The position numbers were made by a program, and so were the translations under genes. Below the pieces are notes generated by a model. The model was not told the origin of the DNA. It worked only from the letters and a program-made list of their open reading frames with translations, and did no database searches. Shown here in pieces: positions 12,538-31,113 of a stretch of DNA of 64,000 bases (position 1 is the first letter of the stretch; each line of letters opens with the position of its first letter). Source of the stretch: Candidatus Omnitrophota bacterium. Lineage in GTDB: Bacteria > Omnitrophota > Omnitrophia > Omnitrophales > JACROU01. Where the stretch lies: NCBI GenBank assembly GCA_029261035.1, contig JAJDCD010000023.1, positions 496,001-560,000 of the forward strand, in the 5' to 3' direction.

Positions 12538-12566
12538 GGAACTATTCCTCTAAAGGTATTGTCTAA
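12538..12566 (+). promoter_or_regulatory. ECF-type (sigma-E-like) promoter of the DUF6515-sigma operon
   Basis: GGAACTA at 12538-12544, a 16-base spacer, and ATTGTCTAA with GTCTAA at 12561-12566. This matches the GGAACTT-N16-GTCTAA form known for RpoE-like ECF sigma factors. It starts about 55 bases before the ATG of the first gene in an operon that itself encodes an ECF sigma factor. The same motif with the same spacing recurs at 14290-14318. Confidence 0.75.
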
Positions 12567-12621
12567 GTATTTGAGGTGTAAATTGAGCTTATTTGACAAT
12601 TTAAATCGGGGGGATGGTGTC

Positions 12622-13248
12622 ATGGGTTATTCGGAAAAAAGAATTTTAACGATTTTTATTTTTGGGCTTTCATTTTTAGTGCTTTCAGGACAAATCAGTC
12701 AAGCTCATGCGAGCTATGGGCATTATAAGTCTTATCATAAAGACTACCGAAGTTATAATAAAAATCATTATAATCACACCTATTACGATTCTTACAGGCC
12801 TTATTACAGGAGAAACTCTAGTTTTGTTCGTGTCAATTTAGGGTTTGGGGATAGTTGTTATTACTCGCAAGGTAACTTTTATCGATATCGCAACGGTTCT
12901 TACCGTAATATCCATGCGCCTTACGGAGCGACTGTTCGAAGATTGCCTTTTGGGTATAAAAAAGTTTATATTCATGGGGAGCCTTATTATTCTTACAAAG
13001 AAACTTATTACACTAAACAGCCTGAAGGGTATACTGTTGTAGATATATCCAGAGAGGTTGAGAGAGCGGATAAAGATTATTTAGGAGCTCCTAGCGAAAC
13101 GCATATTGTAAATGTACCTAATAAGAATGGAAGTTATACTCCGGTTAAGATCAAAAGATATGGAGATACTTATGTGGGGCCAAACGGAGAGTATTACAAC
13201 GAAGCTCCCACGATTGACCAATTAAAACGTTTTTATTCTAAAAGTTAA
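12622..13248 (+). CDS. DUF6515-like secreted Tyr-rich protein
   Basis: 208 residues. A signal peptide spans about 1-32 (cut after AHA). A His/Tyr-rich region (GHYKSYHKDYRSYNKNHYNH) follows, then the DUF6515 pattern: a Y-x-x-G-N-F-Y-R-Y strand, APYGATVRRLPFGYKKVYI and a repeated YY turn. The family is periplasmic or surface-exposed and of unknown function. A run of six G bases upstream fixes the start at 12622. It heads the sigma factor operon and so is probably under that sigma factor. Confidence 0.7.
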   Translation: MGYSEKRILTIFIFGLSFLVLSGQISQAHASYGHYKSYHKDYRSYNKNHYNHTYYDSYRPYYRRNSSFVRVNLGFGDSCYYSQGNFYRYRNGSYRNIHAPYGATVRRLPFGYKKVYIHGEPYYSYKETYYTKQPEGYTVVDISREVERADKDYLGAPSETHIVNVPNKNGSYTPVKIKRYGDTYVGPNGEYYNEAPTIDQLKRFYSKS

Positions 13249-13259
13249 ATGTGAGTGTT

Positions 13260-13811
13260 ATGGAAGATATCAAAGAAACTACAGTTAGAGATGCTGCGAA
13301 TGGAGATGAGCGAGCTTTCCAGGAAATCTATCTCCATTTCTCAACATTTGTTTTTAGTATTTCAGTTAGAATGATGCGGAATCATACGGATGCGGAAGAA
13401 GTAACTCAGGAGGTGTTTGTTCAGGTCTATAAGAGTTTAAAAAAGTTTCGATTTCAATCCTCTTTAAAGACTTGGGTTTATCGTATTACTGTAAATACCG
13501 TTATTAATTACTGTAAAAAATACAACAAGGAAAGAAGTCGAACAGAAGGTTATGACGAAACGATGAATGTACAGGGGGTTGCTCCAGAAATGGAACAGAA
13601 GTCTTATAAAGAAGAACAAGAATTTAAAGTTAAAAAAATTTTAGAGCTATTAAGTTCTGATCAACGAGCTATTGTGATTTTAAGAGAAATTGAAGGCATG
13701 GATTACAGAGAGATTGCAGAAACTCTTGATATTAACTTAAACACAGTAAGAAGCCGTTTGAAACGAGCGCGAGAAAAAATGATGCAGTATGTTAAGAAGG
13801 GGGTGATCTAG
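13260..13811 (+). CDS. ECF sigma-70 factor (RpoE-like)
   Basis: 183 residues. Region 2 covers about residues 15-85 (DAEEVTQEVFVQVYKSLKKF; TWVYRITVNTVINYCKK). Region 4 covers about 120-178 and includes DYREIAETLDINLNTVRSRLKRAREKM, a helix-turn-helix. It directs RNA polymerase to ECF promoters. The anti-sigma gene begins at the very next base after its stop. Two promoters of matching type flank it (12538 and 14290), which implies autoregulation. The start could also be the GTG at 13251. Confidence 0.92.
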   Translation: MEDIKETTVRDAANGDERAFQEIYLHFSTFVFSISVRMMRNHTDAEEVTQEVFVQVYKSLKKFRFQSSLKTWVYRITVNTVINYCKKYNKERSRTEGYDETMNVQGVAPEMEQKSYKEEQEFKVKKILELLSSDQRAIVILREIEGMDYREIAETLDINLNTVRSRLKRAREKMMQYVKKGVI

Positions 13812-14288
13812 ATGAAATGTCGAATAATGAAAGAAAAGATGATGATGGGTTATTTGGAGGATCGTGCTGAGAAAGAAAATTTTTTAGAAATAGAACATCA
13901 TTTAAAGGAGTGTTCAGATTGTCGTATATTTGAGGATGAACTGAATCGAAATACGGTAACTCCATTTGGTTCTCTAGATCCAATTCAGCCGCCTAAAGAG
14001 CTTTGGGGAAAGGTTCAGAGTGAAATTAGAGAGTTAAACCAGAAGCGGAGCTTACCTCAAGAAGGTTTGATCGAAAGAATACGAACTAGTATATCGATTA
14101 GAAGACTTTCTTATGGTATTCCAGCGTTGGTAGCTGCTTTGCTTTTATTAACTGTTTTTCCAAGAACCCCTGTTAATGTCAATGTTCAAACAGAACAATA
14201 CATTGCTGAGGCTTTAGGGGTAACGAATGGAACAGGGGATTTTGAGAGTCTCAATTTTGACACAGAAGTAGAATTCTTTTTTATGTAG
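13812..14288 (+). CDS. Anti-sigma factor with ZAS motif
   Basis: 158 residues. The N-terminal zinc-binding anti-sigma motif H-x3-C-x2-C lies at H30, C34 and C37. A linker runs to about 95, then comes one membrane span (about 100-117, IPALVAALLLLTVF) and a short periplasmic end. It probably holds the preceding sigma factor at the inner membrane and releases it on envelope or metal stress. GGGGG precedes the ATG. The gene is contiguous with the sigma gene. Confidence 0.88.
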   Translation: MKCRIMKEKMMMGYLEDRAEKENFLEIEHHLKECSDCRIFEDELNRNTVTPFGSLDPIQPPKELWGKVQSEIRELNQKRSLPQEGLIERIRTSISIRRLSYGIPALVAALLLLTVFPRTPVNVNVQTEQYIAEALGVTNGTGDFESLNFDTEVEFFFM

Positions 14289-14289
14289 A

Positions 14290-14318
14290 GGAACTTTTTG
14301 CACTATTAGATTGTCTAA
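14290..14318 (+). promoter_or_regulatory. ECF-type promoter of the spy-like pair
   Basis: GGAACTT (14290-14296), 16 bases, GTCTAA (14313-14318), preceded by ATT as in the promoter at 12538. The predicted start, near 14324, leaves a very short leader that still contains AGAGGGGG before the ATG at 14336. An 8-bp inverted repeat CTATTAGA/TCTAATAG (14303-14321) covers the -10 and could bind a repressor. Confidence 0.78.
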
Positions 14319-14335: not shown

Positions 14336-14815
14336 ATGATGAGCAATAAACTTACAGCGATAGCGTTGGCATTTTTGTTGATACCTGTACTTGCCATCCT
14401 ACCAAGCAGTGCTGCATTGGCATTCAGTGATGGAGGAGGGGCTTGTTATGGGGAGTTTGGAAAAGAGAAGAGGAAAATGGCGGATAAAATTATTAATGAG
14501 TTAGACCTGTCTAAAGAACAAATGGCAGCCATTGAAGAGCATAAGAAAATCCATCGAGCTAAAAAAGATGCTCTTTATAAAGAGTTACGAGAAAAGAAAC
14601 AAGCGCTTCGAGAAGCGATGCATGCTGAAGAAATTGATCTCCAAAAAACAGATCAATTAATTGATGAGATTACTGCATTAAACAAAGAAAAGATGAAGAG
14701 CCGAGTTGCTTCGGTTTTGTCTCTTAAGAAGATTTTAACCCTCGGCCAACTGAAGGAGTTGCGAGAAAAGAAACAGGAAATGAAGAAGAAGTTTTTGAAA
14801 AATAATAATAAATAA
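14336..14815 (+). CDS. Spy/CpxP-like periplasmic protein 1
   Basis: 159 residues with a signal peptide (about 1-30). The rest is helical and charged: LDLSKEQMAAIEE then a coiled-coil region, and LTLGQLKELREKK near the end, a weak LTxxQ motif. Spy/CpxP-family proteins are periplasmic chaperones or sensors that buffer envelope or metal stress. It is transcribed from an ECF-type promoter just upstream and followed 13 bases later by a similar gene. Confidence 0.75.
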   Translation: MMSNKLTAIALAFLLIPVLAILPSSAALAFSDGGGACYGEFGKEKRKMADKIINELDLSKEQMAAIEEHKKIHRAKKDALYKELREKKQALREAMHAEEIDLQKTDQLIDEITALNKEKMKSRVASVLSLKKILTLGQLKELREKKQEMKKKFLKNNNK

Positions 14816-14828
14816 AAGGAGAATTAAA

Positions 14829-15338
14829 ATGAAAAGTAAAAAATTAAGCGCAGCATTTGTAATTGCAATTCTTACTATTTTTGCTACAGCATCTATAACC
14901 CCTCAGGCATTTGCCGATCAGGGAAAGAGCAAATGTAGCTTAAAGGCAGGGTGTAAGTACTCTTCGGATAAAGGTAGAGAGGGTAATTTAAGCTGTAAAG
15001 TCTTTAAGAAAGCGCATTTCTTAAAAGAGAATCAAGCAGAAATTGGATTAAGTGATGAGCAGGTGGATCAAATTATAGATATCAAATTTGCTTTGAAAAA
15101 AGATTTGGTTATGAAAAAAGCAGAAATTGAAGTCGTTAAGCTAGATATCAAGCGCAGTGTTTATGAAAGAACAGTTGATGTTGAAGCAGTTAATGACTTG
15201 ATTGATCAAAAGTATGCTATTAAGAGTGAGAAGTCTAAAGCTACCGTTCAAGCTTTGGCAGATATTAAAAACATTCTTACAGACGACCAATATGAAGCGA
15301 TGAAGAGCATCTGGAAGAATAAGAAGTCTAAGAAATAG
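14829..15338 (+). CDS. Spy/CpxP-like periplasmic protein 2
   Basis: 169 residues. Signal peptide about 1-29 (cut after AFA). A Cys-containing region (C36, C43, C57) follows, then helical repeats with IGLSDEQVDQIIDIK and ILTDDQYEAMKSI, the LTxxQ type of motif. It resembles the preceding gene in layout but not closely in sequence. A periplasmic stress-buffering role is inferred from family and operon. A strong terminator follows. Confidence 0.72.
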   Translation: MKSKKLSAAFVIAILTIFATASITPQAFADQGKSKCSLKAGCKYSSDKGREGNLSCKVFKKAHFLKENQAEIGLSDEQVDQIIDIKFALKKDLVMKKAEIEVVKLDIKRSVYERTVDVEAVNDLIDQKYAIKSEKSKATVQALADIKNILTDDQYEAMKSIWKNKKSKK

Positions 15339-15362: not shown

Positions 15363-15402
15363 AAAAAGGCGTTACTGTTATAATACAGTAACGCCTTTTT
15401 TT
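15363..15402 (+). terminator. Bidirectional-form intrinsic terminator with TATAAT loop
   Basis: AAAAAGGCGTTACTGT pairs perfectly with ACAGTAACGCCTTTTT around the six-base loop TATAAT, and T residues follow. It ends the sigma/spy operon. A near-copy with the same loop sits at 24750. Confidence 0.92.
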
Positions 15403-30528: not shown

Positions 30529-31113
30529 ATGAAAGCGCAAACCTTACCTATGGATCCAAACTCCCTTAAGGAATCAGTTGATCTTCTTCAAAAAATAGCC
30601 CAAGGGGATCAGAATGCTTTTTCCCAGTTTTATGATAAGCATTCCGCTCTTGCTTACCGTCTAGCGGTCTACACCATGAATTCCCATAACGAAGCCGAAG
30701 AAGTGGTTCAAGAAGTTTTTATGCAAGTTTGGCGTAAAGCTTCAGAATATTCCTCTAAGAAAGGGAATCCTGAGGCTTGGATTACGATGATGACGCGAAG
30801 TAGATCCATCGATAAGTTGAGGAGCTTACGTAGTACTAATAGGACCAAGGAAGAAGCTCTCTCTCAAGCAGAAGAAAAGCATAAGAGAGATGGGGGAAAA
30901 ACAGATTCACCTCTTCCTAAAATTGTTTTGGATAGCGCGCTTTCTCAGTTAAGCGAGAAGCATCGAAAGGCACTAGAGTTATCTTATTTTATGGGGATGA
31001 CACATGAAGAAATTGCTAAGGAGTTAGACTCTCCCTTAGGTACGGTAAAGGGTTGGTTAAGAGATGGATTGAGAGAATTGCAAAAAATAATGAAATCAAA
31101 GAGGTTGGATTGA
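30529..31113 (+). CDS. ECF sigma-70 factor, second cassette
   Basis: 194 residues. Region 2 spans about 25-95 (EAEEVVQEVFMQVWRKA; PEAWITMMTRSRSIDKLR). Region 4 runs from about 130 (LSQLSEKHRKALELSYFMGM) to 190 (HEEIAKELDSPLGTVKGWLRDGLRELQ). The sequence branch is SigK-like and clearly distinct from the first sigma factor. The anti-sigma gene starts after a one-base gap. A 6-bp inverted repeat TTCTTG-TATT-CAAGAA lies 26 bases upstream. No copy of the GGAAC/GTCTAA promoter is seen near it. Confidence 0.9.
   Translation: MKAQTLPMDPNSLKESVDLLQKIAQGDQNAFSQFYDKHSALAYRLAVYTMNSHNEAEEVVQEVFMQVWRKASEYSSKKGNPEAWITMMTRSRSIDKLRSLRSTNRTKEEALSQAEEKHKRDGGKTDSPLPKIVLDSALSQLSEKHRKALELSYFMGMTHEEIAKELDSPLGTVKGWLRDGLRELQKIMKSKRLD

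Follow-up and report, generated by a model that had tools for sequence, protein, structure and literature searches.

A cassette found in the genome of a Candidatus Omnitrophota bacterium very probably encodes an autoregulated circuit of the RpoE type, in which an ECF sigma factor, paired with an anti-sigma factor, would drive two promoters, P1 and P2, of its own cassette. The cassette lies within the window, a stretch of 64,000 nucleotides (assembly GCA_029261035.1, contig JAJDCD010000023.1, positions 496,001 to 560,000 of the forward strand), and coordinates below are those of the window.

Layout of the cassette

All elements are on the forward strand, in the following order: the predicted promoter P1 [12538..12566], a DUF6515 gene [12622..13248], the genes of the ECF sigma factor [13260..13811] and of the anti-sigma factor [13812..14288], the predicted promoter P2 [14290..14318], the genes of two Spy-like proteins, Spy1 [14336..14815] and Spy2 [14829..15338], and an intrinsic-terminator-like hairpin [15363..15400], with 16 pairs followed by a T run, which closes the cassette behind Spy2. 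The genes are tightly packed: the start codon of the anti-sigma factor comes immediately after the sigma stop, and P2 begins 1 nt past the stop codon of the anti-sigma factor. A preliminary description of this DNA had put the first site ahead of the sigma/anti-sigma operon, and the second directly ahead of two Spy-like genes; both placements hold, with the correction that the promoter-proximal gene of the operon is the DUF6515 gene.

The two sites are exact matches to GGAACTW-N16-GTCTAA: P1, of sequence GGAACTATTCCTCTAAAGGTATTGTCTAA, has the -35 element GGAACTA, and P2, of sequence GGAACTTTTTGCACTATTAGATTGTCTAA, has GGAACTT, each separated by the same N16 spacer from the -10 element GTCTAA. 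The coordinates, letters and equal spacing given earlier are correct, as is the ATT shared ahead of GTCTAA, in which the TT belongs to the phylum-wide consensus (T 0.56, T 0.81) and the A lies outside it. The claimed resemblance to the RpoE-type consensus is also sound, GGAACTT being the -35 element of E. coli sigma-E (PMC8103513, PMC2893595). Transcription is predicted to start at a purine-rich position 7 nt past the -10 element, at about 12573 for P1 and 14325 for P2, within 1 nt of the previous estimates of 12572 and 14324; the predicted start of P2 is only about 11 nt upstream of the ATG of Spy1.

The preliminary description had proposed a genome-wide scan, holding that a motif equally frequent inside genes would speak against promoters. 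In the whole genome of 2.70 Mb, the exact pattern GGAACT-N17-GTCTAA occurs at P1 and P2 only, for an expectation of about 0.37 sites (first-order Markov estimate). When up to two mismatches with GGAACTW-N16-GTCTAA are allowed, the window contains 10 matches, two of them exact, for 3.4 expected. With at most one mismatch, the genome holds 18 sites versus 17 for the reversed-pattern control, which is background; the 16 one-mismatch sites lie nearly all within or antisense to ORFs, and none is upstream of a convincing gene. The check proposed beforehand is thereby answered. A looser search of the genome, with GGAACT-N15..19-GTCNAA, yields a convincing gene downstream of the two cassette sites only, the remaining sites being intragenic or followed by no convincing gene. 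Judging by these patterns, the detectable regulon in the source genome looks like five genes in a single cassette. Of the regulon first claimed, the autoregulated cassette stands, by the footprinting described below; the genome-wide scan adds no members to it in the same genome.

Conservation of the two sites

The window was compared with 21 other Omnitrophota loci that contain orthologs of the sigma factor (41-51% identity), for a total of 22. The gene order in the other loci is sigma, anti-sigma, Spy-like, with a DUF6515 gene in front in three of them; the adjacency of the anti-sigma and Spy genes is conserved. Sites were scored against a 13-position consensus and called at a score of at least 11. 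By this score, which is not fully independent since the consensus, of the E. coli sigma-E type, was also derived from the scored loci, the upstream site P1 is present in 22/22 loci and the internal site P2 in 20/22. The sites scoring at least 12/13, 38 among 546,768 positions (both strands of the 22 loci), are all P1 or P2, and the two sites of the window had been named before the relatives were fetched. The placement of P2 is nearly fixed: its -35 element starts 0-2 nt past the anti-sigma stop in 28 of 35 loci. The two loci in which site scoring finds no P2, L053 and L054, have a very short gap between the anti-sigma and Spy genes. This phylogenetic footprinting bears out the autoregulation and the pairing of promoters with the sigma factor that had been proposed, and conservation likewise supports the apparent pairing of each promoter with its genes.

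The sigma factor

The sigma factor is a protein of 186 aa, in which Sigma70_r2 (PF04542) and r4_2 (PF08281) score over cutoff. Its start is probably the ATG at 13260, favoured by the alignment of ortholog N-termini over the less likely GTG at 13251. Several traits place it among ECF (group IV) factors: it has sigma2 and sigma4 domains only; it scores 106.1 bits against the sigma70-ECF model TIGR02937 (cutoff 42.9); the adjacent anti-sigma gene [13812-14288] is conserved in orthologous loci; and its own promoter, apparently autoregulated, has AAC in the -35 element (GGAACTA for P1, a site present in all 22 loci). It fails the RpoE equivalog model of NCBIfam, TIGR02939, with 105.8 versus 236.15 bits. 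We read it as a sigma factor that works like RpoE though it is not classed as RpoE; E. coli sigma-E and a sigma-H factor are among its closest relatives of solved structure.

None of the four remaining ECF genes in the source genome is preceded by such a site; the best scores there are 8-10 of 13. The window has one more ECF sigma gene, distantly related, at 30586-31092, and the promoter motif is absent upstream of it. In two other genomes, G006 (L120, positions 2632, 18296 and 18872) and G018 (L119, position 4479), the -35 element is shifted to GACACTT or GCCACCT; these sites front the sigma operon, the anti-sigma region and the DUF6515 gene of a more distant ECF clade. Judged from these two genomes only, this suggests that sigma factor and promoter co-vary.

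The anti-sigma factor and a model of the circuit

The N-terminus of the anti-sigma factor is a zinc-finger-type domain with an HxxxCxxC motif, found in all aligned orthologs; it is followed by one TM-like stretch, as read from the sequence, and a short tail. Motif, adjacency to the sigma gene and apparent membrane anchor are those of zinc-finger (ZAS) anti-sigma factors, with zf-HC2 itself below cutoff (18.9 bits for 22.2) and the NCBIfam antisigma model also below cutoff (E 2.2e-07).

The circuit would work as follows. At rest, the membrane-anchored zinc-finger-type anti-sigma factor would hold the sigma factor, until an envelope signal frees it. The sigma factor would then read both promoters: RNA polymerase carrying it would start at P1, producing the DUF6515 protein, sigma and anti-sigma, that is, positive feedback together with a matching inhibitor, and at P2, producing the two Spy-like periplasmic proteins, which could be raised separately from sigma and anti-sigma. 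The likely purpose of P2 is to lift the Spy-like chaperones above the level of the sigma/anti-sigma pair. That envelope stress is the inducing condition, we infer from the nature of the target proteins.

The tail of the anti-sigma factor deserves attention. In the window, the protein ends with DTEVEFFFM (tail region [14250-14288]), and ortholog C-termini from many lineages share a conserved acidic-aromatic tail, GTxIEEYFL or near. Its conservation is unlikely to be a by-product of P2, because the tail is retained in L053 and L054, which lack P2; it is thus probably a feature of the protein, a candidate sensor or degradation tag. A concrete, if speculative, hypothesis for signal sensing is that the tail is a sensor peptide read in the periplasm by a Spy-like protein or a PDZ protease: when free Spy is lost, busy with misfolded proteins, the tail would be exposed and would start the release of sigma.

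The Spy-like proteins

Spy1, a periplasmic protein of the Spy/CpxP/ZraP type, matches PF13801 with 30.3 bits (cutoff 29.2). PF07813 remains below cutoff for both Spy1 and Spy2 (E 7.4e-04 for the latter), and comparison of Spy2 with orthologs of Spy1 gives, for some of them, matches at about 1e-6. The signature of the Spy/CpxP LTxxQ family, two motifs in an all-helical periplasmic protein, is nevertheless recognizable: both proteins have two LTxxQ-type motifs spaced 76 residues, and the predicted model, obtained for Spy1, is closest to ZraP, then to CpxP, CnrX and Spy (Foldseek; ZraP prob 1.00, with an E of only 0.027).

The DUF6515 protein

The DUF6515 protein, of 208 aa, has a signal-peptide-like N-terminus and scores 45.2 bits against PF20125 (cutoff 24.9). 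An alignment of 24 homologs reveals a conserved C-terminal module, VPNxNGSYTxV...GPxGEYYxxxPTxxQLKxxY, which is duplicated in three loci (L063, L064 and L067). A fold search with the predicted structure of the window protein gave nothing above noise, which is insufficient to show a new fold.

Among the DUF6515 genes of sigma-bearing genomes, 12/14 have a site of at least 11/13 within 220 bp upstream, and this holds also for copies distant from the sigma gene (genomes G040, G011, G036, G019, G023 and G034); two copies of G036 have no upstream site at this score. Two exact sites outside the cassette, found blind by pattern in G015 and G040, lie about 60 bp upstream of DUF6515 genes. The site in G015 (L099, G015:C24:74782) is a perfect promoter; no close ortholog of the sigma factor is present in the assembly of this 95%-complete genome. 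The proposal that DUF6515 is a member of the circuit is upheld by promoters conserved in front of both linked and unlinked copies, the sites of G015 and G040 being independent support. DUF6515, a family whose function is unknown, would thereby be placed by promoter conservation in a probable response to envelope stress.

Competing explanations

P1 and P2 might be chance matches to a degenerate motif, as the background level of one-mismatch matches in the source genome would allow. The exact sites, however, are exclusive to the cassette genome-wide, and both are conserved in relatives, a finding that refutes such a reading and leaves it with hardly any probability. It is also conceivable that one long operon is transcribed from P1, with P2 a chance or minor site: the genes are packed closely enough, and L053 and L054 do without P2 across their very short gap. 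The retention of P2 in 20 of 22 loci, mostly 0-2 nt past the anti-sigma stop, makes this quite improbable.

A circuit similar to CnrYXH, in which the Spy-like protein would be a periplasmic metal sensor controlling the anti-sigma factor rather than mainly an output, is a more serious competitor, although still an unlikely one. It has a precedent in the known sensor, anti-sigma and sigma system CnrX-CnrY-CnrH, in which CnrX controls CnrY (PMC4598750); in addition, Spy1 matches PF13801, Metal_resist, CnrX is among the structures that its model resembles, along with ZraP and CpxP, and the anti-sigma and Spy genes stay adjacent. But the Z-scores for CnrX and CpxP are within the range usual for helical bundles, and an alignment of 44 Spy-like members shows no conserved metal-binding histidines: HxxxH occurs in 4/44 members and several have no histidine at all, which speaks against CnrX-type metal sensing through these residues. 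As for the preferred reading, an autoregulated circuit with two promoters, the points against it are the failed RpoE cutoff, the loci L053 and L054 without P2, the two DUF6515 copies of G036 without a site, and G015 with a DUF6515 promoter but no close sigma ortholog.

Relation to known systems

The cassette shares with the E. coli sigma-E system (RpoE-RseA, ECF02) an ECF sigma factor with a membrane anti-sigma factor, autoregulation, envelope-protein targets, and the -35 element GGAACTT (PMC8103513). It differs in that its anti-sigma factor is of the zinc-finger type, neither Pfam nor NCBIfam giving an RseA-type match, in that its sigma factor is below the RpoE equivalog cutoff, and in that the local targets are Spy-like and DUF6515 proteins. 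In E. coli, spy is controlled by Cpx/Bae, not by sigma-E. As in CnrYXH of Cupriavidus, an ECF sigma factor, an anti-sigma factor and a periplasmic protein of the CpxP superfamily are encoded together, but the Omnitrophota cassette has neither conserved metal-ligand histidines nor metal-efflux genes, and its Spy gene is preceded by a separate sigma promoter. The Spy-like proteins resemble the Spy/CpxP/ZraP chaperones in motifs, motif spacing and all-helical model; contrary to these, they would be under an ECF sigma factor instead of a two-component system.

Autoregulation is widespread among ECF/anti-sigma operons, about 55% of ECFs being autoregulated (review, PMC8103513), and this kind of circuit is already known. 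A literature search of incomplete coverage, with many papers outside it, turned up nothing on DUF6515 in bacteria and nothing on ECF circuits in Omnitrophota; the wiring, the phylum-wide dual promoter and the link to DUF6515 were not found there.

The motif across the phylum

We scanned 384 Omnitrophota genomes for GGAACTT-N16-GTCTAA, with the reversed pattern as control. The scan yields 171 sites (summed over the table) in 86 genomes, versus 27 for the control, so that about one sixth of the sites could be due to chance. Some 25 pairs of sites on the same strand are 1.05-1.13 kb apart, which is the length of the sigma and anti-sigma genes. The gene that follows was examined at 105 distinct sites; it encodes a sigma factor (24), a Spy-like protein (25), a DUF6515 protein (22), an anti-sigma factor (1) or another protein (33): 72 sites are thus upstream of genes of the four cassette families. 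The extended logo of the sites reads GGAACTTTT and TTGTCTAA, and 7 nt past the -10 element it shows a purine-rich position. Omnitrophota, a phylum that is known chiefly through metagenomes, thereby gains a regulon logo, together with a sigma factor and promoter whose pairing can be tested directly.

By Pfam, the other downstream genes include a single RND pump, DUF3300 and, in several genomes, outer-membrane efflux proteins, as well as glycine-zipper-like proteins below the Pfam cutoff. The promoters ahead of TolC-type outer-membrane efflux genes and the RND pump are those of L142, L144, L160, L167, L197, L204 and L202; since the same promoter fronts such genes in other Omnitrophota, the size of the regulon seems to depend on the lineage. 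The cassette can also be rearranged: in L181 (G353), the promoter is followed by the anti-sigma gene, then the DUF6515 gene, and finally the sigma gene.
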